DNA of 64,000 nt from Portibacter lacus (GTDB lineage: Bacteria; Bacteroidota; Bacteroidia; Chitinophagales; Saprospiraceae). The position numbers and the translations under genes are program-made. Location: the NCBI RefSeq assembly GCF_021533215.1, contig NZ_JAJNKA010000011.1, positions 1 through 64,000 of the forward strand. The letters run 5' to 3'. The notes below the pieces were generated by a model, which had not been told where the DNA came from, searched no databases, and saw only the letters and a program-made list of their open reading frames with translations. Positions 39,773 through 51,659 of the stretch are shown piece by piece (position 1 is the first letter of the stretch; the number at the start of each line of letters is the position of its first letter).

Positions 39773-39814
39773 ATAATTTGATAGCCTGACCTTTAGTCAG
39801 ACTATCCATATTAT
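39773..39814. repeat. Hairpin related to the one at 45797-45846
   Basis: ATAAT..., GATAG-C-CTGAC-loop-GTCAG-A-CTATC, ...ATTAT forms a long stem with one mismatch. Its core GATAGCCTGACCT recurs in the hairpin after the BtaA-like gene. The two hairpins bracket the four-gene operon 40020-45784. Confidence 0.7.
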
Positions 39815-40019: not shown

Positions 40020-41279
40020 ATGAGTACAGACTATCGAAATCTTAAGATCCTAATGCAGGAAATTGAGGATGATAAACGAATCCAACGAATCATCCAACAG
40101 CAGAATCAAGATCATGAATTAGAGCGGATATGGAATCGTGATCACTATAACAAAGAGGGCCAGGATAAGCGACTAGATTATCTCAAAGAGAAACACAACC
40201 TCCCTTTCGAGAATCTATCTAATAATGCTGGAATAGATGATCTGAACGAGCTGAAAGGAAATATCGAAAATTTCATCGGTTTCTCTAAAGTCCCCACAGG
40301 AATTGCTGGTCCACTTCTCGTTAACGGCACTGCAGCTTCAGGTCAATTTTTTATCCCTCTTGCTACAACAGAAGGAGCGTTAGTAGCTAGTTATAATCGG
40401 GGTTGTAAAGCAGCAAGTATTTCAGGCGGTATCAGATCGATATGTATAACAGAGTCGGTGCAAAGAAGTCCTATTTTTAAGTTTGAGAACATTATTGGTG
40501 TAGGTCAATTTCTAGCCTGGGTAGTTCATCAATATGAAAAATTCGAAGAAATTACTTCGAAGTCTAGTAACTATGCGAAACTTAGAAACTTAAAAACCAA
40601 CATAGAAGGGAATCAAGTCAATTTGATCTTCGAATTTAATACAGGCGATGCAGCTGGTCAAAATATGGTGACCTTTTGTACTTCGGAAATTTGTAGTTAC
40701 ATTATCGAAAATACGCCCATCAAACCTAAGGTCTGGTACGTAGAAAGTAACTTGTCAGGAGATAAGAAATCGAACTATCAGTCATTCCAAAATGTGCGTG
40801 GAAAGAAAGTGGTGTCCGAAGTTGAAATACCTCGAGAAGTGGTGGAAAAGACCCTGAGGTCGACACCAGAAATGATGGCTGATTACTGGCAAACTTCGAC
40901 GGTAAGTTTGATACAACTCGGAAGCATCGGCGCACAAGGACACATTGCGAATGGCCTTACTGCACTCTTCATAGCTACGGGACAAGATGTCGCTTGCATC
41001 TCTGAAGTTATCGTTGCGGTGAACAGAATGGAGGTGACGGAGAATGGAAATCTATATGCCAGTTTAACGATGCCGAATCTCATCGTCGGAACAGTTGGTG
41101 GTGGAACATCACTACCGACCCAACGAGAGTGCTTAGAAATAATGGAATGTTATGGAGCGGGAAAGGCACGAAAATTTGCTGAAATTTGTTGTGCATTAGC
41201 ATTGGCAGGTGAACTGTCGATATGCGCGGCAATTGCTTCGGGCCATTTTGTCTCGGCGCACCAAAAACTAGGAAGATGA
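40020..41279 (+). CDS. Hydroxymethylglutaryl-CoA reductase
   Basis: Reduces HMG-CoA to mevalonate, the committed step of the mevalonate isoprenoid route. 419 residues: an N-terminal helical extension (~1-90), then the catalytic domain with PTGIAGPLLVNG, the cis-loop Glu in TTEGALVASYNRGCKAA, NTGDAAGQNMVTFC (DAxGxN), the catalytic Lys in SNLSGDKK, GTVGGGTSLPTQ and the C-terminal catalytic His in SGHFVSAHQKLGR. No membrane anchor. First gene of the operon; its stop overlaps the next start by 4 bp (ATGA). No other mevalonate genes are in the window. Confidence 0.92.
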   Translation: MSTDYRNLKILMQEIEDDKRIQRIIQQQNQDHELERIWNRDHYNKEGQDKRLDYLKEKHNLPFENLSNNAGIDDLNELKGNIENFIGFSKVPTGIAGPLLVNGTAASGQFFIPLATTEGALVASYNRGCKAASISGGIRSICITESVQRSPIFKFENIIGVGQFLAWVVHQYEKFEEITSKSSNYAKLRNLKTNIEGNQVNLIFEFNTGDAAGQNMVTFCTSEICSYIIENTPIKPKVWYVESNLSGDKKSNYQSFQNVRGKKVVSEVEIPREVVEKTLRSTPEMMADYWQTSTVSLIQLGSIGAQGHIANGLTALFIATGQDVACISEVIVAVNRMEVTENGNLYASLTMPNLIVGTVGGGTSLPTQRECLEIMECYGAGKARKFAEICCALALAGELSICAAIASGHFVSAHQKLGR

Positions 41280-42211
41280 CAAACGAAAACGAACTTCCAT
41301 TTTGGAGGAGATTTATGATATATCAGAAGGAACGATTTCCAATTTTGGGACATGGGCCACTGATTTTGATGTTTACCTTTTCAGCGATTTCGTACAGTCG
41401 AATTTGCAGAGACGTAGAAGGATTTATCGCAACGGATGATCTGATCGTAGGTTTCATCACCACGTTTTGTTTGTTTTTTCTAGTCAGGGTTTTAGATGAA
41501 TTCAAAGATGCAGAAACAGACAGGAAATATAGAAGTGAGTTGCCCGTTCCTCGAGGTTTAATTTCCTTTAAAGAACTGAAATGGATGGGAGCCGTAGCGT
41601 TAGCGATACAGGTCATCGCCATTTTAATCGTCCATCCATCCATGTTTATGATCTACGTGATCGTGATGGCTTACCTGGCATTGATGACCGTGGAGTTTTT
41701 CGCGCATGATTGGTTGAACAAACACATGTGGGCGTACGCAGCGTCGCACATGATGATAATCCCATTGGTTGATATTTACGCAAGTGGATTGGATTGGTAT
41801 TTAGATGGAGCGAAACCACATTTGGGCTTGTTGTTTTTCTTCGGAGTATCTTATTTCAATGGAATTGTTCTGGAAGTGGGAAGGAAATTAAAAGCGCCTG
41901 AACTTGAAAAAGAGGGCGTCGTCACTTATTCCGGATTACTGGGATATCAGAAAGGCGCTCGTTTATGGATTCTGATGTTGGTTGTGACCGCTGGAATTGC
42001 GGCGGCAGCATGCTATTATGCAGGGCTTTCGGTAATTTCTTACTACGTTTTAGGATTTGTGTTGCTAGCGTGCATATTATTGGCTGTCCAGTACATTCGC
42101 AACCCAACAAAGGCCTTATCTAAGCGACTTGAATTGATGTCAGGCGTCTGGACTTTACTGATGTATGGAACACTGGGCGGAATTCCCGGAATCATAACTT
42201 TTCTATCATGA
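41276..42211 (+). CDS. UbiA family prenyltransferase
   Basis: Membrane prenyltransferase of 311 residues with about eight hydrophobic segments. The first prenyl-diphosphate site reads FLVRVLDEFKDAETDRKYR, a DxxxDxxxD-type variant, followed by the LPVPRGLIS turn typical of UbiA proteins. The second Asp-rich site is weak (region around LEVGRKLKAPELEKEGVVTY). It should transfer a prenyl group to an acceptor not identifiable here. The ATG at 41276 is chosen because it overlaps the HMG-CoA reductase stop as ATGA; its own stop overlaps the dikinase start in the same way. Confidence 0.85.
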   Translation: MTNENELPFWRRFMIYQKERFPILGHGPLILMFTFSAISYSRICRDVEGFIATDDLIVGFITTFCLFFLVRVLDEFKDAETDRKYRSELPVPRGLISFKELKWMGAVALAIQVIAILIVHPSMFMIYVIVMAYLALMTVEFFAHDWLNKHMWAYAASHMMIIPLVDIYASGLDWYLDGAKPHLGLLFFFGVSYFNGIVLEVGRKLKAPELEKEGVVTYSGLLGYQKGARLWILMLVVTAGIAAAACYYAGLSVISYYVLGFVLLACILLAVQYIRNPTKALSKRLELMSGVWTLLMYGTLGGIPGIITFLS

Positions 42212-44709
42212 ATAAATATTTGATTTTCGAAGGTGATGATATTGGTGGAAAGGCTGAACAGCTTGTTTTCCTAAGTGAACAAGGTTTTCAGGTGCCTACT
42301 TTAAAAGTAATTCCGGCTGAGGCAAAAGATAAGGTAGATGAGCAGAAAGATTTTATTTTAGGTCAATTGGATAAAGACTGTACCTACTTCAGTGTTCGAT
42401 CATCCGCAGTCGGTGAGGATGGAGCAGAGTTTAGTTTTGCAGGTCAATTTGATAGTTTTCTTTACGTGAGAAAGTCTGAAATGATCGAAAAGATTCATGC
42501 CGTATATGCATCAGCGGAGTCAGATAGAATCAAGTTTTACAGGAAGCAGAATAAGATAGAAGGTGAGATAAAAATGGGTGTAATTATCCAAGAAATGGTC
42601 AATGCAGAGGTCTCAGGAGTGATGTTTGGAGTCAATCCAGTTTCTCAGATCGAAGGAGAAATGTTGATTTCCTCAGTGTATGGATTGGGCGAGGGCCTAG
42701 TTTCTGGAGAGCTAAACGCAGATAATTATTTCATAAAAGACGGCAACATTGACAGAGAAGAAATTGCCAATAAAACACAGCAGATTGTTCTAGATGATGA
42801 AAAAGGTGGAACGATAATCCAAGCAACTGATCCAGATAAAGCGAAGAATTCAAGCTTGTCGAAAAGCCAAATTGATGAGTTGGTGAAAACATTGACAGCG
42901 CTTAATGAGCTGTACGAATTTCCTCAGGACGTGGAATGGGCATATGAGAAAGACCAACTTTATATATTGCAATCTCGTCCGATAACCAACCTTAAGGTTA
43001 AAGAAGGAACACGAATAATATGGGATAATTCTAATATCATTGAATCTTACCCAGGTGTCACCACTCCACTTACTTTTTCATTTATTAGGGAAATGTACCG
43101 AGTGGTATATGAGCAATTTAGTGGATTGCTTGGGATCGAAGAGAAAGTGCTAAAAGACAATGCAGAAGTTTATGAGAACATGCTTGGTCTACTAAGAGGC
43201 CGAGTGTACTATAACTTGCGAAGTTGGTATCGTGCCTTGGCTTTGCTTCCTGGATATCAATTGAATGCTGGATTCATGGAAACCATGATGGGCGTGAAGG
43301 AGAAATTTGAATTAGAAGATCAATATAAAGGTGGAAAGACGAGGGCGAGATTTAGAATTCTAGGAACGGTATTCAAGATGATTAAAACGTTCCGTAGACT
43401 ACCGCGGCAACGAGATGAATTCCTAGCATTTCTGGACAAAACCGTAAAGGAATATCAGGCAATTGATTTTGATGAATGCGCGCCTGAGCAACTAATGAAT
43501 CATTATAAGACTTTCGAAACCATTCTTACAGAAAAATGGGATCCGCCATTGGTGAATGATTTTTTCGCTATGATTTACTTCGGAGTTTTCCAGAAATTGA
43601 TAGGTAAGTGGATCGGGGAAGATCATCCTCATTTACATAATGATTTATTGGCGTTTAGCAACGATATTATCTCTACCCAGCCGATGATTCAAAGTTTGTT
43701 GCTTGCAAAGAAAATACTAGGAAACGAAAAACTAAAAAAGCAGTTTGAAGGCAGTCCACAAGAGGCATGGGAGAAAATCCAAGGCAGTGAAATTCATCAG
43801 GAGATATTGGAATACCTAAAGAAATATGGAGAACGATGTCTGGGTGAATTGAAGCTGGAAACCATTTCGTATAATCAAGCTCCAGAGAAGTTTGTAAAGA
43901 TTCTACAATCCTATATTAAGAATCCAAAAGCACTGGAAGCACTAGAGAATAGTCAAAGTGAAGCATTGAAAATGGAGGCCAATAAGATTGTGCAGGAAAA
44001 GCTAGGAGGTAAGTTTTTCAAGAAGCGAATCTTTAACTATTTCATGAAAAAGACAAGAGAATTGGTCAGCAATCGAGAAAATCTGAGATTCGAGCGGACG
44101 CGGGGTTTTGGGATCGTTCGACAGATCTTTTCCTCTATGGGTGTTCAGTTTGAATCAAGAGGATTAATTCATCATTATCGTGATATTTTCTATTTGACGA
44201 AGGAAGAAATATTTGATTTTATCAAAGGGACGGCTGTTTCATTGAACCTCCAGGAAAACATTGACCTAAGAAAAAAAGAATATGCCGTTTATCGAGAAGA
44301 CGAATATGTGCCTGAAAGAATAGTGACTTATGGCTCGGCTAATGAGAATTTAGAATTTACAGGGAAACAACTGGAAGCTGGAGATGGCGACCTTACTGGG
44401 ATTGCATGCTGCCCAGGAATCGTGAAAACCGAAGTCTGTGTAGTGCATTCACCAGAGCAGATCGATGATCTTCAAGGTAGAATTATGGTAACGAGTAGCA
44501 CAGATCCAGGTTGGGTTTCTTTGTTTCCATCTGCTGCAGGAATATTAGTTGAGCGAGGAAGTTTGTTGAGTCATTCGGCCATCGTCGCTCGTGAATTAGG
44601 GATCCCGTGTATTGTTGCGATCGATGGATTGTTACAGCGGTTGAAAACGGGAGATTACGTGGAAATGGATGGATCAACGGGTGTTATTAAAATCGGAAAG
44701 AATGAGTGA
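42208..44709 (+). CDS. PEP-synthase-like dikinase with rifampicin-phosphotransferase architecture
   Basis: 833 residues: N-terminal ATP-grasp domain (~1-270) with YFSVRSSAVGEDGAEFSFAG, QEMVNAEVSGVMFGVNP and LYILQSRPI; a long middle domain (~280-740) unlike PEP synthase; and a C-terminal swivelling His domain with TSSTDPGWVSLFPSA and GSLLSHSAIVARELGIPCIV (phospho-His ~789). The PEP-binding barrel that ends true PEP synthases is absent. This order matches rifampicin phosphotransferase, which moves the beta-phosphate of ATP to a small molecule. Sitting between UbiA and the BtaA-like gene, a lipid or prenyl alcohol may be the substrate; that is inference. Confidence 0.82.
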   Translation: MNKYLIFEGDDIGGKAEQLVFLSEQGFQVPTLKVIPAEAKDKVDEQKDFILGQLDKDCTYFSVRSSAVGEDGAEFSFAGQFDSFLYVRKSEMIEKIHAVYASAESDRIKFYRKQNKIEGEIKMGVIIQEMVNAEVSGVMFGVNPVSQIEGEMLISSVYGLGEGLVSGELNADNYFIKDGNIDREEIANKTQQIVLDDEKGGTIIQATDPDKAKNSSLSKSQIDELVKTLTALNELYEFPQDVEWAYEKDQLYILQSRPITNLKVKEGTRIIWDNSNIIESYPGVTTPLTFSFIREMYRVVYEQFSGLLGIEEKVLKDNAEVYENMLGLLRGRVYYNLRSWYRALALLPGYQLNAGFMETMMGVKEKFELEDQYKGGKTRARFRILGTVFKMIKTFRRLPRQRDEFLAFLDKTVKEYQAIDFDECAPEQLMNHYKTFETILTEKWDPPLVNDFFAMIYFGVFQKLIGKWIGEDHPHLHNDLLAFSNDIISTQPMIQSLLLAKKILGNEKLKKQFEGSPQEAWEKIQGSEIHQEILEYLKKYGERCLGELKLETISYNQAPEKFVKILQSYIKNPKALEALENSQSEALKMEANKIVQEKLGGKFFKKRIFNYFMKKTRELVSNRENLRFERTRGFGIVRQIFSSMGVQFESRGLIHHYRDIFYLTKEEIFDFIKGTAVSLNLQENIDLRKKEYAVYREDEYVPERIVTYGSANENLEFTGKQLEAGDGDLTGIACCPGIVKTEVCVVHSPEQIDDLQGRIMVTSSTDPGWVSLFPSAAGILVERGSLLSHSAIVARELGIPCIVAIDGLLQRLKTGDYVEMDGSTGVIKIGKNE

Positions 44710-45784
44710 GAAGCATCTAGACGAAGTGGATCATAGTTATATTCGGTATGCGAATGTGTGGGAGGATCCGAAATTGTTGCTCGAGGGTTTAGACATTTGT
44801 CATGAACATAAAGTGTTGTCTATTGCTTCTGCCGGTGATAATGCTCTGGCGTTGCTAGTTACGAATCCGAAAATCGTGGTGGCGATAGATCTTAACAAAC
44901 CTCAACTTTACCTTACCGAACTGAAGAAGGTTGCAATTCAAAATTTGGATCAGGATGCTTTTGTGAAATTCGCTGGATTTCAAGATGATTCAAGACGATG
45001 GCGAACATTTATGAAGTTTCGAGACGATCTATCTGCAGAAGCGAGGACTTACTGGAATGGTAAGAAGGAAGAAATAGAAAAGGGTATCATTTATAATGGG
45101 AAGTTTGAAAAATACCTAAAAACTTTTGCGACGAAATTGTTGCCATTAATTCATTCTCGTAAGAAGGTTCAAGAATTATTCGAAGAGAAATCGGCTGCAG
45201 ATCAGCGGAAGTTTTATGATCAGAAATGGAATACTTGGCGATGGAGATTATTGTTTAGAGTGTTTTTTAGCAAGCTAGTGATGGGTTGGCTTGGAAGAGA
45301 TCCAGCTTTTTTGGAGCAAGTGGATGTGGATGTAAGTACGACCATATTCGAAAAAGCAGAGAACCACTTAAGTTCAATTTATGCTCAGAAGAACCCAATA
45401 TTGTATTACTGTTTGAATGGAAATTTCGGAAGTTATTTGCCATTCTATGCTCGCGAAGAAAATTATGAAAATGTGCGGGGAAATCTGGATAAATTAGAAA
45501 TAGAATATGGATATGCGCAAGATGCAGCGGTGAAGTATGGCCAATTTGATCGTTTCAATCTTTCAAATATTTTCGAGTACATGGATGAAGAGGTTTTCAC
45601 TTCGACCGCGGAGTCATTGGTGAATATTGCAAATCCAGGTTCTAGGTTTGCGTATTGGAATTTAATGGTAGAACGTCAGATGAGTGAAGTTGTGGAAGGT
45701 TTGAGTCGGGAAGATGATCGAGCAAATTGGAAAGATCGAGATGAGGGCTTTTTCTATAAGCAGTTTGTGTTGGAAACAACCTGA
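44702..45784 (+). CDS. DUF3419 / BtaA-like 3-amino-3-carboxypropyltransferase
   Basis: BtaA moves the aminocarboxypropyl group of S-adenosylmethionine to diacylglycerol, the first step of betaine lipid synthesis. The 360-residue protein has the family opening YIRYANVWEDPKLLLEGL, the SAM-site motif VLSIASAGDNALALL and VVAIDLNKPQLYLTELK, and the ending SRFAYWNLM. The ATG at 44702 overlaps the dikinase end by 8 bp. No BtaB methyltransferase domain or gene is nearby, so the product may be an unmethylated or different head group. Confidence 0.85.
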   Translation: MSEKHLDEVDHSYIRYANVWEDPKLLLEGLDICHEHKVLSIASAGDNALALLVTNPKIVVAIDLNKPQLYLTELKKVAIQNLDQDAFVKFAGFQDDSRRWRTFMKFRDDLSAEARTYWNGKKEEIEKGIIYNGKFEKYLKTFATKLLPLIHSRKKVQELFEEKSAADQRKFYDQKWNTWRWRLLFRVFFSKLVMGWLGRDPAFLEQVDVDVSTTIFEKAENHLSSIYAQKNPILYYCLNGNFGSYLPFYAREENYENVRGNLDKLEIEYGYAQDAAVKYGQFDRFNLSNIFEYMDEEVFTSTAESLVNIANPGSRFAYWNLMVERQMSEVVEGLSREDDRANWKDRDEGFFYKQFVLETT

Positions 45785-45796
45785 ACCTTTTGACGC

Positions 45797-45846
45797 TCCA
45801 TGATCTGATAGCCTGACCTGCAGTCAACCTATCAAATGATCATGGA
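45797..45846. repeat. Long hairpin after the lipid operon
   Basis: TCCATGATC-TGATAG ... CTATCA-AAT-GATCATGGA makes a ~15-bp stem just after the BtaA-like stop, and carries the core GATAGCCTGACCT shared with 39780. It may stop or stabilise the operon transcript. Confidence 0.7.
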
Positions 45847-46203: not shown

Positions 46204-46878
46204 ATGAGTCTGTCCTCTATTGATTTTAAAACCATAATAATCTTCTCAGCCATATTCTTCGTATTATTTGTTATCGCTGAGATCGGATACCGAGTTTTAA
46301 AACTAAATGTTGGTTATACAAGGAAGTTCGTCCATGTATGCACAGGGATCATTGTGATGTCCTTTCCATTCTATTTCAAGACTCCTCTAGATCTTATCTT
46401 AATTTGTACGAGTTTTTTCATTGTGCTTACCGTAAGCAAAAGGGTGGGACTGATGCCATCGATTAATGCCATCAATCGAAAATCTAGGGGAAGTACGCTT
46501 TATCCTGTTGTTGTAGTGATTTGCTACTTGATTCAATATTGGTTAGGCAAGTATATTTATTTCTTTGTTCCGATTCTTATCCTTGCTCTCGCCGATCCGA
46601 TGGCAGAATTTGCAGGCAGAAAATGGAAGTACAAACCCTACAGTATTTTTAATAATTCGAAAACGATATCTGGGTCCATAGGCTTTTTCATTATTGCTCT
46701 TATCATATCGGCAATTGGAATGTTTTACTTTGGCAATGTGAATCCCGCGATCATGATTTTATGTGCTATCGTTATTGGGATATTAACCACGATTGGTGAA
46801 GCTGTGAGCTTTAAAGGTTATGATAATTTAGTGATTCCGCTTTGTGCCGTATTAGGTCTATATCTTTTCGGTGTATAA
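46204..46878 (+). CDS. Phytol/dolichol kinase-like CTP-dependent lipid kinase
   Basis: Polytopic membrane protein of 224 residues with about seven helices. The early RKFVHVCTGIIVM, the GSTLYPV motif, and ALADPMAEFAGRK with KTISGSIGFF and the late SFKGYDNLVIP are the pattern of the VTE5/SEC59/CDP-diglyceride synthase group, which phosphorylates prenyl alcohols with CTP. Its position after the UbiA-dikinase-BtaA set suggests phosphorylation of a prenyl alcohol for the same lipid. It is separated from that operon by 419 bp of repeats, so its own promoter is likely. Confidence 0.8.
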   Translation: MSLSSIDFKTIIIFSAIFFVLFVIAEIGYRVLKLNVGYTRKFVHVCTGIIVMSFPFYFKTPLDLILICTSFFIVLTVSKRVGLMPSINAINRKSRGSTLYPVVVVICYLIQYWLGKYIYFFVPILILALADPMAEFAGRKWKYKPYSIFNNSKTISGSIGFFIIALIISAIGMFYFGNVNPAIMILCAIVIGILTTIGEAVSFKGYDNLVIPLCAVLGLYLFGV

Positions 46879-47215: not shown

Positions 47216-48622
47216 ATGATTAGACAAACAGTTCTTGTATTAGCCATGCTTTCGGGTTTTTTCTGCAATTCCCAGGAGAGTTATCCATTCTATGTTGGAC
47301 ATAGTTTAGTTAATTTTGATATGCCAGCGATGGTTCAAGGTCTTGCCGAAGATGCAGGAAAAACCACAAGTTATGATAGCCAGATAGGAATTGGAGCGCC
47401 ATTACAATGGAATTATAATAACCACGAGACATCTCAAGGAACACCCTACGTAGATGCTTTTCCTGCGGGAAATCACAACACATTAATTATTACGGAAGCG
47501 GTTCCATTGCAGAATCATTTAAGTTATAGCGATACATATGATTATGCGAATAACTTTTATAGTTATGCTAAAAGTAACAATAATAGCAACCCAGTGAAGT
47601 TCTATCTTTACGAAACATGGCATTGCATCAACTCTGGAATTCCATCTGAAGAACCGAATGCTGAAAATGGTTGTGCATGGGACAACTCTGCGAATAGCAC
47701 CACTTTATGGCATCCAAGATTATTAGCAGACTTTCCACTGTGGTCAGGAATTGTTACAAGTGTTCGCGATGATAACCCAACGGACACGGAGATTTGGATG
47801 GTGCCAGCTGGGCAGGCATTTTACAATTTGACGACTGAAATTAATGATGGAAATGTACCTGGCATCGCAGCTGTTACAGAATTATTTGCGGATGATATCC
47901 ATTTAACGAACGCAGGGAATTATTTTGTCGCTTGTGTTATGTATGCAACTGTTTACGGTGAATCGCCTGTTGGTCTCACGCAAAGTATTAACAACCAATG
48001 GGGCTCAGCTTTTACAGATATGCCCACAACTGCACAGGCTTTAGTGATGCAAGAAATAGCGTGGGAAACAGTAACTGATTTAACGCCTTGGACTGGAGTT
48101 TCGGTTACCGTTCCAGTAGAATGGGCTCAGAATACTGAGGCTGAAGTGCTGAATAATAAGGTGAAAATTTCCTTCGCTGCAGCTCATCAAATCAATAATG
48201 CTCACTTTGAAATAGAGCATAGTTTAGATGGAAGAACATTCAAGCCAATCGGCAAAATTTTAGGAGAGGAAGATTTAATATCAGAAAGGTGGTATGAATT
48301 TATCCATCGCAATCCGACACCTGGAAGAAATTTCTATCGCGTAAAACAAGTCGATGATGACGGAAAATATACTTACGGAAATATTACCTCTGTGGTTTAC
48401 GATGCTCGACAAACGATGATTTATCCTAATCCAGTTAATGGGGAATTAACGGTAGATTCTCCTTCTGAAGATATGATGTTTTTATATAACCAATTGGGTC
48501 AAGAATTATTAAGGAAGTCGCTTGTGAAAGGAATTAATAAAGTGGATATGGCGGGTTTAAACAGTGGTGTGTATTTTGCAAGATTTGGAAATGGAACTGT
48601 AGAAAGAATGGTGAAGGAGTAA
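47216..48622 (+). CDS. Secreted SGNH-like hydrolase with type IX sorting domain
   Basis: 468 residues. A signal peptide ends near CNSQ. The catalytic half (~20-270) has FYVGHSLVNFDMP near the N-terminus in the place of the SGNH Ser block, ITEAVPLQNH, and the DDIHLTNAGNYFVA block with the Asp/His pair. A linker and fibronectin-like segment (~310-395) follow, and the C-terminal sorting domain has IYPNPVNGELTV and SGVYFARFGNGTVERMVK. Likely an exported esterase; the substrate is unknown. The gene separates the kinase and the ligase operon. Confidence 0.75.
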   Translation: MIRQTVLVLAMLSGFFCNSQESYPFYVGHSLVNFDMPAMVQGLAEDAGKTTSYDSQIGIGAPLQWNYNNHETSQGTPYVDAFPAGNHNTLIITEAVPLQNHLSYSDTYDYANNFYSYAKSNNNSNPVKFYLYETWHCINSGIPSEEPNAENGCAWDNSANSTTLWHPRLLADFPLWSGIVTSVRDDNPTDTEIWMVPAGQAFYNLTTEINDGNVPGIAAVTELFADDIHLTNAGNYFVACVMYATVYGESPVGLTQSINNQWGSAFTDMPTTAQALVMQEIAWETVTDLTPWTGVSVTVPVEWAQNTEAEVLNNKVKISFAAAHQINNAHFEIEHSLDGRTFKPIGKILGEEDLISERWYEFIHRNPTPGRNFYRVKQVDDDGKYTYGNITSVVYDARQTMIYPNPVNGELTVDSPSEDMMFLYNQLGQELLRKSLVKGINKVDMAGLNSGVYFARFGNGTVERMVKE

Positions 48623-48680: not shown

Positions 48681-49634
48681 ATGATAAAAGTACTTAAGAA
48701 AGCGACATGTCCTAGTTCAGAAACAGAGTTCTTTCATTGCTGTTTCGAAGTGTATAATGAAAAAGAAATCCTAGCTAAAATTTCATTGTATATAAATCCC
48801 TACCACACCATAGAGCTTGAGCAAGCTTTAACCATAGGGAATTTCGAATGTGTAAATGATCAGGGAGTTTTCAACATTTTAATGGATGCGGTTGTAAAAG
48901 AAGCAAAGGAAGTCAATCTAAGTAATATTATAGGTCCTATTAATGGAAATACGTGGAATGAATACCGCTTAGTATCCACTTCTAATGCTCAACCGTTCTT
49001 GCTTGATGTCGATACACCACAATATTACATTGACCTATATAAGGGTTATGGCTTCGAAACGCTGGCTCAATATTATTCAGAACAAGCGGAAAATCTGACA
49101 GATAATTGGGAGAAAAACAAGCCGAAATATGAAGCTTTTATTGAACAAGGAGTTTCTTTTCATGAGTTCGATATGGAAAATGCGACGCGGGAATTAGAGG
49201 GTTTGGCAGAATTATGCAATGCATCCTTTTCGAACAATTTCTTATTCAGCCCGATTACGAAAGAAGCATTTGTAATGAAAATGATGCCTAGTTTATCCAT
49301 CATGAATCCTCGATATACTTTAGTAGCGAAGGTGGATAATAGGCCAGTTGGATTTATTTTTTGCTACCAAAACCTGCACGATAAAGTGGATAAAACCATT
49401 GTTGTTAAAACATTGGCAAGGGATTTGGATGATCAGTATAAAGGCATGGGAAATGTACTTTCTTCGCTAGTGATGAAGAATGTAATTGAAGATGATTTTA
49501 CAAAAGGAATCCATGCATTAATGTTAATTTCCAATTCTTCTACGTATATTTCGAGTAGCTTCGCAGGCAATTTCCTCCGAAGTTATGAGTTATTGCAACT
49601 TAAACTGAACAATAAATCATGGATACAAAAGTAA
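48681..49634 (+). CDS. GNAT-like acyltransferase (YghO-like)
   Basis: 317 residues, cytoplasmic, with two GNAT-like halves. The first has NIIGPINGNTWNEYRLV and FETLAQYYSE; the second has YTLVAKVDNRPVGFIFCYQN and VVKTLARDLDDQYKGMGNVL, where the acetyl/acyl-CoA loop is expected. This layout resembles the YghO-type GNAT proteins of unknown substrate. It opens a three-gene operon; its last 16 bp overlap the start of the SRPBCC gene. Confidence 0.7.
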   Translation: MIKVLKKATCPSSETEFFHCCFEVYNEKEILAKISLYINPYHTIELEQALTIGNFECVNDQGVFNILMDAVVKEAKEVNLSNIIGPINGNTWNEYRLVSTSNAQPFLLDVDTPQYYIDLYKGYGFETLAQYYSEQAENLTDNWEKNKPKYEAFIEQGVSFHEFDMENATRELEGLAELCNASFSNNFLFSPITKEAFVMKMMPSLSIMNPRYTLVAKVDNRPVGFIFCYQNLHDKVDKTIVVKTLARDLDDQYKGMGNVLSSLVMKNVIEDDFTKGIHALMLISNSSTYISSSFAGNFLRSYELLQLKLNNKSWIQK

Positions 49635-50194
49635 CATCAACACTCAGAAAAGTCTTCCTGGCTGTGCTTTTGCTATTCCTAATTGTATCTTTTGCGGCCT
49701 ACAAATTTTCTCCCTACGATCAAAAAATATTATCAGCTGTAGACATCGAAATGCCGTGTGAAATTGCTTTTGACTATTTAGGTGATTCTGAAAATGCTAA
49801 AGACTGGTCTGTTTTCGTGGCATTTATCGAGACTATAAATTCTGCAGTGATCCCAGATGGAGAAGTTGGTTCTAAGCGAATTTGCTATACAAAGGAAGAT
49901 CATACTGGATTTAATTGGGAAGAGGAAGTGCTAGAAGTAAAACCGAATGAATATCGTAAGATTAGTTGCTACAATTTCGAGAACTTAGGAATCAATACCC
50001 CGAATCTTGCCACAGAGCAGATATATCGTACAACAGATGAAGGTTGCAAAGTAATGTTTACACTTGATTTTATAAAAACCCCAGGTTTTATAGATCTCGT
50101 TAAAATGAAATTTGCCGCCTATCGAATCAAGTCGATTTTCGATAAGAATCTAGCCAATATCAAAGGGGAAGTACTTAAGAAGAGAAGGCCTTAA
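49619..50194 (+). CDS. Membrane-anchored SRPBCC (polyketide-cyclase-like) protein
   Basis: 191 residues with one N-terminal hydrophobic helix (VFLAVLLLFLIVSFAAYKF) and a START/SRPBCC domain: IEMPCEIAFDYLGDSENAKDWSVF, GSKRICYT, FNWEEEVLEVKPNEYRKIS and a C-terminal long helix. The fold holds hydrophobic ligands such as lipids or polyketides. Overlap with the GNAT gene and a 1-bp gap to the ligase gene show co-translation. Confidence 0.75.
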   Translation: MDTKVTSTLRKVFLAVLLLFLIVSFAAYKFSPYDQKILSAVDIEMPCEIAFDYLGDSENAKDWSVFVAFIETINSAVIPDGEVGSKRICYTKEDHTGFNWEEEVLEVKPNEYRKISCYNFENLGINTPNLATEQIYRTTDEGCKVMFTLDFIKTPGFIDLVKMKFAAYRIKSIFDKNLANIKGEVLKKRRP

Positions 50195-50195
50195 G

Positions 50196-51659
50196 ATGTC
50201 CAACTTGGTTAGTATCTTTTTCCAAGCGGCGGAATCGCACCCGGATCACATTGCTATTTCACATAAAGAAGAAGTAATTACTTACGATGATTTAAGTATT
50301 AATGTACAGACGATTGCGAACTATCTTTCTCAAAAAGGAATCAGAAAAGGAACGAAAGTTCTGGTATTTATCCCAATGTCTATTAAGCTTTACGAAACAG
50401 TCCTTGCCTTATTTAGCTTGGGTGCAATAGTAGTTTTTGTAGATGAGTGGGCGGATCGAGCAAGAATGAAGAAAGCTTTAGAAGTTGTGCCAGTCGATGT
50501 GGTGATTGCTCCACGAAAATTCCTTTGGTTAGCTTACCTTATTTCACCATATCGAAGTATAAATAGAAAATTATCTATCCCAAAAAAACTTAGGCCTATT
50601 TCATTTGCTGCGGAAAAAGTTAATATAAATGATACGGCATTAATTACGTTTACGACAGGGAGTACTGGACTACCTAAAGCGGCGAATCGGACGCATCATT
50701 TTTTAGCAGAGCAATTTAGGATTTTGAAGTTTGAAATTGGCGCAAGGCCTGAAGATGTAGCTTTGGTTACTTTACCTATTGTTTTATTGTCAATTTTAGG
50801 AACTGGTGCAACAGGAGTTATTCCAGTGTTTAATCAGAAGAAGCCAGAGGAAATGGATGTGGAGGGTTTAGTCCGATCACTGACCAAAGATCGGGTGACT
50901 ATGATTATTGGTTCACCTTATTTTGTAGAGCGCTTAGCCGATGGGAAGAAAGAAAAAACGGATATTCGAAAGGTATTAACGGGCGGCGCACCAGTGTTTC
51001 CAGATGTAGCAGTGAAAATCCAGACAGCTTTCCAAGAAGCCGAATGCATGGTTGCTTATGGAAGTACAGAAGCAGAACCTATTTCTACCATAGCCATGAA
51101 GGATATTGTGGTCAATGTTAACGGACTTGGAGTAGGAAACCCTCATCCAGAAATTCAACTCAAGATCATTCGGATGACAGATGACGAAATCAAATTAGAT
51201 GCGGAAGGTTGGGGAAAGTGGGAGGAAGCGTTTGGTGAAATCATTGTGAAAGGTCCCCATGTCCTGGTTAGTTATTACAATAGTGATGAAGCATTTCGAC
51301 TGAATAAGATAAAGGATGGCGACCGGATATGGCATAGGACTGGAGATAGCGGAAGATTAGTCGATGGAGCACTATATTTAAATGGTCGCTGCAGCCAGTT
51401 GATCAAATCCGATGAAGGTTATCAGTCCTTGTTTATTATTGAATACCAACTGAGTAAGGTTGCTGGGGTCGCAATAGGTACGTTTATGAATGGTGTGATT
51501 GTTCTAGAACTTAGGGATGAAGCTATAGAATCTGAAGTGAGGGCTGCTGTTTCAGGCTTCCACTTAGGTGAGCAATCGATTAGAATTGTTGACCGTATTC
51601 CACGTGATCCACGACACTTTAGTAAGATCGATTACGCAAGAGTCCTTGCAATAATGTGA
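50196..51659 (+). CDS. AMP-dependent ligase, OleC-like
   Basis: 487-residue adenylate-forming enzyme. P-loop TFTTGSTGLPKAANRTHH, the aromatic/acidic core YGSTEAEPIS, the RTGDSGRLVDG hinge and the C-terminal catalytic Lys in PRDPRHFSKIDYARV. The TGGAPVFPDVAVKIQ block and the RHFSK end resemble OleC beta-lactone synthetases and their acyl-CoA-ligase relatives, though the C-terminal domain is short. It would activate a fatty or hydroxy acid with ATP. Last gene of the operon. Its 3' end is partly duplicated just after the stop. Confidence 0.8.
   Translation: MSNLVSIFFQAAESHPDHIAISHKEEVITYDDLSINVQTIANYLSQKGIRKGTKVLVFIPMSIKLYETVLALFSLGAIVVFVDEWADRARMKKALEVVPVDVVIAPRKFLWLAYLISPYRSINRKLSIPKKLRPISFAAEKVNINDTALITFTTGSTGLPKAANRTHHFLAEQFRILKFEIGARPEDVALVTLPIVLLSILGTGATGVIPVFNQKKPEEMDVEGLVRSLTKDRVTMIIGSPYFVERLADGKKEKTDIRKVLTGGAPVFPDVAVKIQTAFQEAECMVAYGSTEAEPISTIAMKDIVVNVNGLGVGNPHPEIQLKIIRMTDDEIKLDAEGWGKWEEAFGEIIVKGPHVLVSYYNSDEAFRLNKIKDGDRIWHRTGDSGRLVDGALYLNGRCSQLIKSDEGYQSLFIIEYQLSKVAGVAIGTFMNGVIVLELRDEAIESEVRAAVSGFHLGEQSIRIVDRIPRDPRHFSKIDYARVLAIM

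Follow-up and report, generated by a model that had tools for sequence, protein, structure and literature searches.

The 64,000-nucleotide stretch of Portibacter lacus DNA analysed here (contig NZ_JAJNKA010000011.1, positions 1 to 64,000; the window) carries, between positions 40020 and 51659, all eight genes of a cluster that is larger than the four overlapping genes first noticed in it and is conserved across many bacteria. These genes encode a relative of 3-hydroxy-3-methylglutaryl coenzyme A (HMG-CoA) reductase (HMGR), a UbiA-family transferase, a dikinase, a DUF3419 protein of the BtaA family, a membrane protein predicted to be a lipid-alcohol kinase (PHYK), a tandem-GNAT acyltransferase, an optional SRPBCC protein and an OleC-like AMP-forming ligase. 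The gene cluster is apparently not yet described, and it probably builds an unusual lipid, using the HMGR relative for a non-isoprenoid role. Few enzymes have been studied as much as HMG-CoA reductase, and its presence is usually read as an indication of the mevalonate pathway; the HMGR of this cluster usually occurs without that pathway.

Extent and conservation of the cluster

Relatives were gathered from named genomes, scanned with an alignment of five DUF3419 sequences, and neighbourhoods were counted around the 80 nearest of them (the best 80 of at least 546 confirmed), each partner being scored only at loci with enough flanking DNA (53 for the genes upstream of DUF3419 and 56 for those downstream). 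The usual gene order in these relatives is HMGR, UbiA, dikinase, DUF3419, PHYK, tandem GNAT, (SRPBCC) and ligase. Dikinase and UbiA each accompany DUF3419 at 52 of 53 loci and HMGR at 47 of 53; downstream, GNAT and ligase are each present at 54 of 56 loci, PHYK at 51 and SRPBCC at 10. An earlier note on this DNA had described the first four genes as an operon, and its overlaps of 4, 4 and 8 bp in the order HMGR, UbiA, dikinase and DUF3419 (span 40020-45784) agree exactly with the coordinates. As a unit the four genes are real and co-ordered, although the description was incomplete, since four further genes, out to 51659, belong with them. The note had also proposed to look for the same order in other Bacteroidota, where it does recur, the genes not being scattered in relatives; as this order is found in many lineages, the four-gene arrangement is not a product of chance.

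Carriers are mostly Bacteroidota (Saprospiraceae, Crocinitomicaceae, Sphingobacterium, Dyadobacter, Microscilla, Rhabdobacter and Chitinophaga). All seven genes are present in a Verrucomicrobia-labelled record (L119), and the cluster is also carried by a Chitinispirillaceae-labelled record cut within the dikinase (L117) and, with HMGR absent, by two Endomicrobia-labelled records of one metagenome-assembled genome (MAG; L122 and L123). Only DUF3419 and PHYK were found on a Planctomycetota contig (L113), and L073 is without the downstream partners. Horizontal transfer has probably contributed to the spread of the cluster. Regarding its frequency, an earlier DUF3419 search of 247 genomes of the phylum found relatives in 30, the near ones having additional neighbouring genes in common. 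Of these 30 genomes, 12 were viewed over 20 kb or within the window and 18 over 1.5 kb on each side; the UbiA of this cluster, sought in the 247 genomes at E 1e-8, occurs in five, the same five in which the dikinase was found near DUF3419.

Table 1. Genes of the cluster in the window, with one intervening gene.
Feature	Position	Strand	Evidence
HMGR-like reductase, class I catalytic domain, 419 aa	40020..41279	+	Pfam HMG-CoA_red, E 1.5e-115
UbiA-family transferase	41276..42211	+	Pfam UbiA (PF01040), E 2.9e-10
Dikinase, rifampin-phosphotransferase/PigC domain order	42208..44709	+	PPDK_N, E 2.1e-59; PEP-utilizers, E 1.8e-23
DUF3419 (BtaA-family), predicted S-adenosylmethionine (SAM) 3-amino-3-carboxypropyl transferase	44702..45784	+	DUF3419, E 4.7e-65
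PHYK membrane protein, distant CdsA/phytol-dolichol-kinase superfamily, predicted lipid-alcohol kinase	46204..46878	+	
Type IX secretion system (T9SS)-type gene, between PHYK and GNAT	47216-48622		
Tandem-GNAT acyltransferase	48681..49634	+	
SRPBCC protein (Polyketide_cyc2), optional member	49619..50194	+	10/56 loci
OleC-like AMP-forming acyl ligase	50196..51659	+	

The starts adopted for UbiA and DUF3419 are the ATG codons at 41276 and 44702, the mechanical open reading frames beginning earlier, at 41222 and 44669, respectively. The corresponding position in Portibacter marinus (L046) does not hold the gene for a T9SS-sorted protein that lies inside the window's cluster. A REP-like hairpin repeat, GATAGCCTGACCTnnAGTCAGnCTATC, flanks the four-gene operon at 39780-39806 and 45807-45833; its pattern matches 21 times genome-wide, with at least one palindromic site contributing a hit on each strand, and four of the copies, on C38, are spaced at 199 bp. 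The idea that it marks a mobile boundary of the operon was set aside because the repeat is dispersed through the genome.

The reductase and the mevalonate pathway

A set of 38 cluster-bearing genomes was searched for DXR, of the methylerythritol phosphate (MEP) pathway, for MDD, of the mevalonate pathway, and for HMGR. DXR was found in 30 of them. At E 0.001, MDD matches were obtained in 18, of which eight are strong (at least 159 bits, two of them passing the curated cut-off of 171 bits) and ten are partial (19.8-29 bits); as E. coli and other control genomes also give sub-cut-off matches in this search, only the eight strong genomes were counted. DXR without strong MDD is thus the situation in 29 of the 38 genomes: a single HMGR is present in 26 of these, two in one (Microscilla, G253) and none in two (G272 and G273). 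In 25 of the 26 single-HMGR genomes that HMGR lies at the cluster locus, so that the sole copy is the cluster copy; in the other (G271) the contig is cut. One further genome has both DXR and MDD (G279) and another none of the three genes (G270).

Two HMGRs are present in all eight genomes with strong MDD. The window's genome is one of these: its MDD match, at 163.6 bits, lies just under the curated cut-off, it has no DXR match, and its second HMGR adjoins a gene resembling a type-2 isopentenyl diphosphate (IPP) isomerase (IDI-2-like, named by eye). The statement in the earlier note that no other mevalonate genes are present therefore holds within the window and fails for the genome. HMG-CoA synthase (PF08540 and PF01154) gave no match in seven of seven genomes; since these searches were blank even in the window's genome, which lacks DXR and has strong MDD, they are uninformative and were left unused.

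The explanation of the earlier note is that the HMGR makes mevalonate and boosts the isoprenoid supply for UbiA, leading to a prenylated ether or betaine-like lipid. Strong MDD in the window's genome and in seven of the 37 others would agree with it, as would the polyprenyl synthetase-like gene seen by eye immediately behind the cluster in L050 and in its vicinity in L059 and L034. A second HMGR is however already at hand in every strong-MDD genome, and conversion of mevalonate into IPP is not to be expected in the 29 genomes that have DXR but lack strong MDD. This explanation is hence largely refuted for MEP hosts and, taken over all carriers, improbable: most of those examined have DXR and no HMGR other than that of the cluster, in which, moreover, a pocket serine is replaced throughout (see below). 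A role of the cluster HMGR in feeding isoprenoid synthesis is not supported, the mevalonate reading failing in most of the carriers examined.

The protein itself combines intact catalytic residues with an altered pocket. It has the PF00368 domain and the four catalytic residues of class I HMGRs; its closest solved relative is 6hr7, which we take to be the Methanothermococcus HMGR, and it scores 310.5 bits against the NCBIfam HMG_CoA_R_NADP equivalog, below the cut-off of 441.8. When 54 HMGRs from cluster loci were aligned with the human and archaeal class I enzymes (human numbering), E559, K691, D767 and H866 were kept in 54/54, S684 was replaced by Glu in 54/54 and M657 by Gln in 54/54. Position 684 is Ser in both reference enzymes, and according to an excerpt of PMC9500038 this serine makes one of the polar contacts with the HMG moiety of statins; pocket residues of the human enzyme are also named in an excerpt of PMC3875450. 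From these replacements, HMG-CoA would no longer be the preferred substrate of the cluster HMGR.

Three observations temper this view. The HMG-pocket residues R590, D690, K691, K692 and N755 are kept in 54/54, so that HMG-CoA may still be a substrate. Position K735, not Lys in the alignment, is ambiguous, since with a gap beside the column R, Q or K could stand there, and for this reason an initial reading of K735 as lost in all was withdrawn. The E684/Q657 pair, furthermore, is also found in non-cluster HMGRs of Bacteroidota genomes without this UbiA, and hence characterises a wider HMGR subfamily instead of being specific to the cluster. Among 15 such relatives from the 247-genome search, E684 was read in L130, L133-L141, L144 and L148 and Ala in L147, all with Q657 (L142, L143, L145 and L146 were left out of the reading). 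Most non-cluster enzymes of the E684 type are longer, the open frames of L133-L141, L144 and L126, in several Bacteroidota families, being 518-612 aa long; L126 is a second Microscilla HMGR, also E684, with the Pfam domain HMG-CoA_red_N. An isolated E684-type HMGR that is 53% identical to the window's was also seen (L149), in a genome without UbiA or DUF3419 match (G025). As the cluster HMGRs, a conserved subfamily, occur in genomes with DXR and without strong MDD, annotating mevalonate-fed isoprenoids from them would be wrong. No description of an HMGR of this kind was found in the open-access literature when it was searched for HMGR without a mevalonate pathway.

Mevalonate might alternatively serve as a building block, the HMGR making it, the AMP-ligase activating its carboxylate and the GNAT putting the mevalonyl group on an amine, with later prenylation and phosphorylation. 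The fungal siderophore enzymes SidI and SidF are an analogue of such an activation of mevalonate and transfer to an amine. HMGR, AMP-ligase and tandem GNAT do co-occur, the class I catalytic residues are intact in every protein aligned, and this scheme, needing no mevalonate pathway, suits MEP-type carriers; it fits less well with the invariable Glu at position 684, with the acyl-CoA-reductase-type gene that takes the place of HMGR in L034, and with the persistence of ligase and GNAT where HMGR was not found (L105, L120, L122 and a plasmid). We consider it unlikely.

Partner enzymes and a possible aminolipid route

Domain calls on the window proteins were made by Pfam and NCBIfam searches. UbiA reaches 40.3 bits against PF01040 (cut-off 34.2). 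Its first motif is DExKDxxxD in 68/68 aligned rows and its second Asp motif, compared with the E. coli sequence, is replaced by E..RK in 69/69 (the window protein, where it reads E..RK.....E, being counted twice), so that it does not have the two Asp-rich motifs of UbiA prenyltransferases and its donor may be unusual. The dikinase consists of an ATP-binding domain, a middle domain and a C-terminal swivelling domain with His789, a residue present in 71/71 aligned dikinases; no phosphoenolpyruvate (PEP)-binding C domain was found in it, and in domain order it follows rifampin phosphotransferase and the prodigiosin ligases PigC/RedH, as opposed to PEP synthase. Among solved structures it is nearest to 5hv2/5fbs (219 bits; labelled PEP synthase in the structure table), which are presumably rifampin phosphotransferases. 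It scores 283.4 bits against the rifampin phosphotransferase equivalog (cut-off 999) and 288 bits against PigC (cut-off 1300), and its middle domain does not align with rifampin phosphotransferase.

The DUF3419 domain is matched at 220.7 bits (gathering cut-off 28.2). Sequence searches of solved structures gave no credible relative of DUF3419, PHYK or GNAT; the structural model of the GNAT (predicted local distance difference test, pLDDT, 94.7) matches tandem GNATs, among them 7q3a, mycothiol synthase and an aminoacyl-phosphatidylglycerol synthase. The ligase obtains 175 bits against OleC (cut-off 900) and 278 bits against PRK09274 (cut-off 478). The window's PHYK has no curated family match in Pfam or NCBIfam, and weak PF01148 matches occur in 4 of 24 members; its RKxxH and GxDN motifs are, we assume, phytol-kinase motifs. 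Long PHYKs (374-480 aa) were considered as VTE5 + VTE6/DUF92 fusions, an idea abandoned as no DUF92 match was obtained in the 24 members.

From these assignments we infer a pathway, including its substrates, the order of its steps and its product. The OleC-like ligase would activate an acid; the HMGR-derived enzyme, having lost its tuning to HMG-CoA, would convert an acyl thioester into a primary alcohol, which PHYK, with the dikinase, would phosphorylate; UbiA would attach a prenyl or other allylic group; DUF3419 would transfer the aminocarboxypropyl group of SAM, and the tandem GNAT would acylate the new amine. That the cluster is dedicated to the biosynthesis of an aminolipid-type compound not yet described, bearing an acylated aminocarboxypropyl group, has, in our judgement, an even chance of being correct. 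We hold much more tentatively that the HMGR was taken from the mevalonate pathway to perform the four-electron reduction of other acyl thioesters and that, with the lipid kinases and the altered UbiA, it would provide an intermediate of the alcohol diphosphate type, allylic and either fatty or branched, to be coupled to the SAM-derived amino acid group; if this doubtful possibility were true, the product would represent a new class of bacterial membrane aminolipid. Of the lipid imagined in the earlier note, the SAM-derived aminocarboxypropyl group fits the wider cluster, while the mevalonate-fed isoprenoid part is not supported.

Variant loci bear on the proposed chemistry. L034 holds UbiA, dikinase, GNAT and DUF3419, without HMGR in its neighbourhood or genome (G140), together with a NAD_binding_4 gene (acyl-CoA-reductase type), a DAGK-type lipid kinase in PHYK's place and a phosphatidylserine-decarboxylase-like gene. 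A different DUF3419 cluster is found in L035, where DUF3419 is fused to an N-terminal PEMT-like domain and neighbours a DAGK-type kinase, a GNAT, a pyridoxal phosphate decarboxylase and a class II aldolase. At the Chitinophaga-labelled locus L090 (L090/L127) the cluster lacks PHYK, and an HMGR of the E684 type, fused to an APH-type kinase, is encoded nearby on the opposite strand. The stand-ins in L034 and L035 and the HMGR-APH kinase fusion suggest a common logic, from thioester to alcohol to phosphate. Fused open frames, one DUF3419-GNAT (L090) and one GNAT-ligase (L116), suggest that ligase and GNAT act on the product of DUF3419, although both are single MAG cases in which part of the GNAT is missing. 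A CdsA-like gene accompanied by one for a CDP-alcohol phosphotransferase, in seven loci (see below), also speaks for a lipid-type pathway.

Further points count against the proposed pathway. HMGR was not found on the cluster strand at 6 of 53 loci, including one with no partner at all (L100), one whose stretch ends 0.9 kb before UbiA (L102) and L090 with its fused HMGR on the other strand; a plasmid of the alphaproteobacterium Roseinatronobacter carries a six-gene version, with no HMGR in the stretches read. HMGR is therefore outside the indispensable core. The kinase activity of PHYK is a prediction, in fact a guess at the level of motifs: its model (pLDDT 94.9) gave only a weak CdsA match in a fold search (E 0.0098) and nothing below E 0.4 against a viral fold library. 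In favour of the proposal, the seven proteins co-vary: compared pair by pair over 37 loci, their distances give r values of 0.66-0.93 (the highest permuted value being 0.39, with 200 permutations for each pair), a correlation which partly reflects the shared descent of the organisms. As carriers include named strains (Dyadobacter, Sphingobacterium, Portibacter and Rhabdobacter), the product can be searched for by lipid comparison, and one may guess that the cluster could account for some of the 'unidentified aminolipids' of Bacteroidota.

Comparison with known systems

Every enzyme family of the cluster is individually familiar, and a known quinone, pigment or siderophore pathway could in principle have been misread as new. 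No quinone-, polyene- or NRPS-like genes were recognised by eye among the families present in at least three neighbourhoods, and no match to the gene set was found in searches of the open-access literature directed at it (subscription papers and preprints being outside their scope). We therefore give this explanation very little credence. The earlier note knew of no described pathway with this gene set, and by eye no known pigment or quinone pathway was recognised around the genes. The neighbourhoods described in the excerpt of the eLife lipocone paper (PMC12419801) differ from this cluster.

The closest parallel for DUF3419 is the synthesis of betaine lipids by BtaA/BtaB, with which the cluster shares a DUF3419 enzyme and the predicted transfer of the SAM aminocarboxypropyl group to a lipid. 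In contrast to that system, no methyltransferase was recognised by eye among the recurring families of the cluster, BtaB elsewhere in the genomes not having been searched for, and to our knowledge the seven cluster partners of DUF3419 are not known from betaine-lipid synthesis. Identity is about 20-28% for the more distant DUF3419 proteins that the phylum and plasmid searches brought up, none of which was identified as a true BtaA. The dikinase resembles rifampin phosphotransferase and PigC/RedH in domain order and in its C-terminal His domain, and differs from them by scores far below the equivalog cut-offs and by a middle domain that does not align with the phosphotransferase. Similarly, the ligase is related to the OleC beta-lactone synthetase, but no OleA, OleB or OleD was recognised by eye beside it, and PHYK is linked to phytol and dolichol kinases (VTE5 and SEC59) by weak PF01148 and CdsA matches and by its two motifs. 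The cluster HMGR, for its part, shares PF00368 and the catalytic Glu, Lys, Asp and His with the class I enzymes of human and Methanothermococcus, and departs from them by its Glu684 and Gln657 and by its presence in genomes without strong MDD.

A last parallel is the synthesis of archaeal-type prenyl ether phospholipids in bacteria of the Fibrobacterota-Chlorobiota-Bacteroidota (FCB) group, which can make such lipids according to an excerpt of PMC7852524. The cluster might be a variant of it, given its UbiA, the CdsA-like and CDP-alcohol phosphotransferase genes found together in seven loci (on the opposite strand in L066; confirmed by Pfam for the L051 pair) and the phosphatidylserine-decarboxylase-like gene of L034. 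We judge this very improbable: PcrB/geranylgeranylglyceryl phosphate (GGGP) synthase (PF01884) was found in 23 of 28 cluster genomes, two of them marginal, and not in the other five, including both Sphingobacterium tested; none was recognised by eye among the recurrent neighbours, and UbiA has lost its second Asp motif. The two systems thus have in common UbiA and, in some loci, phospholipid head-group enzymes, to which the present cluster, with no recognised GGGP synthase of its own, adds HMGR, dikinase, DUF3419, GNAT and ligase.

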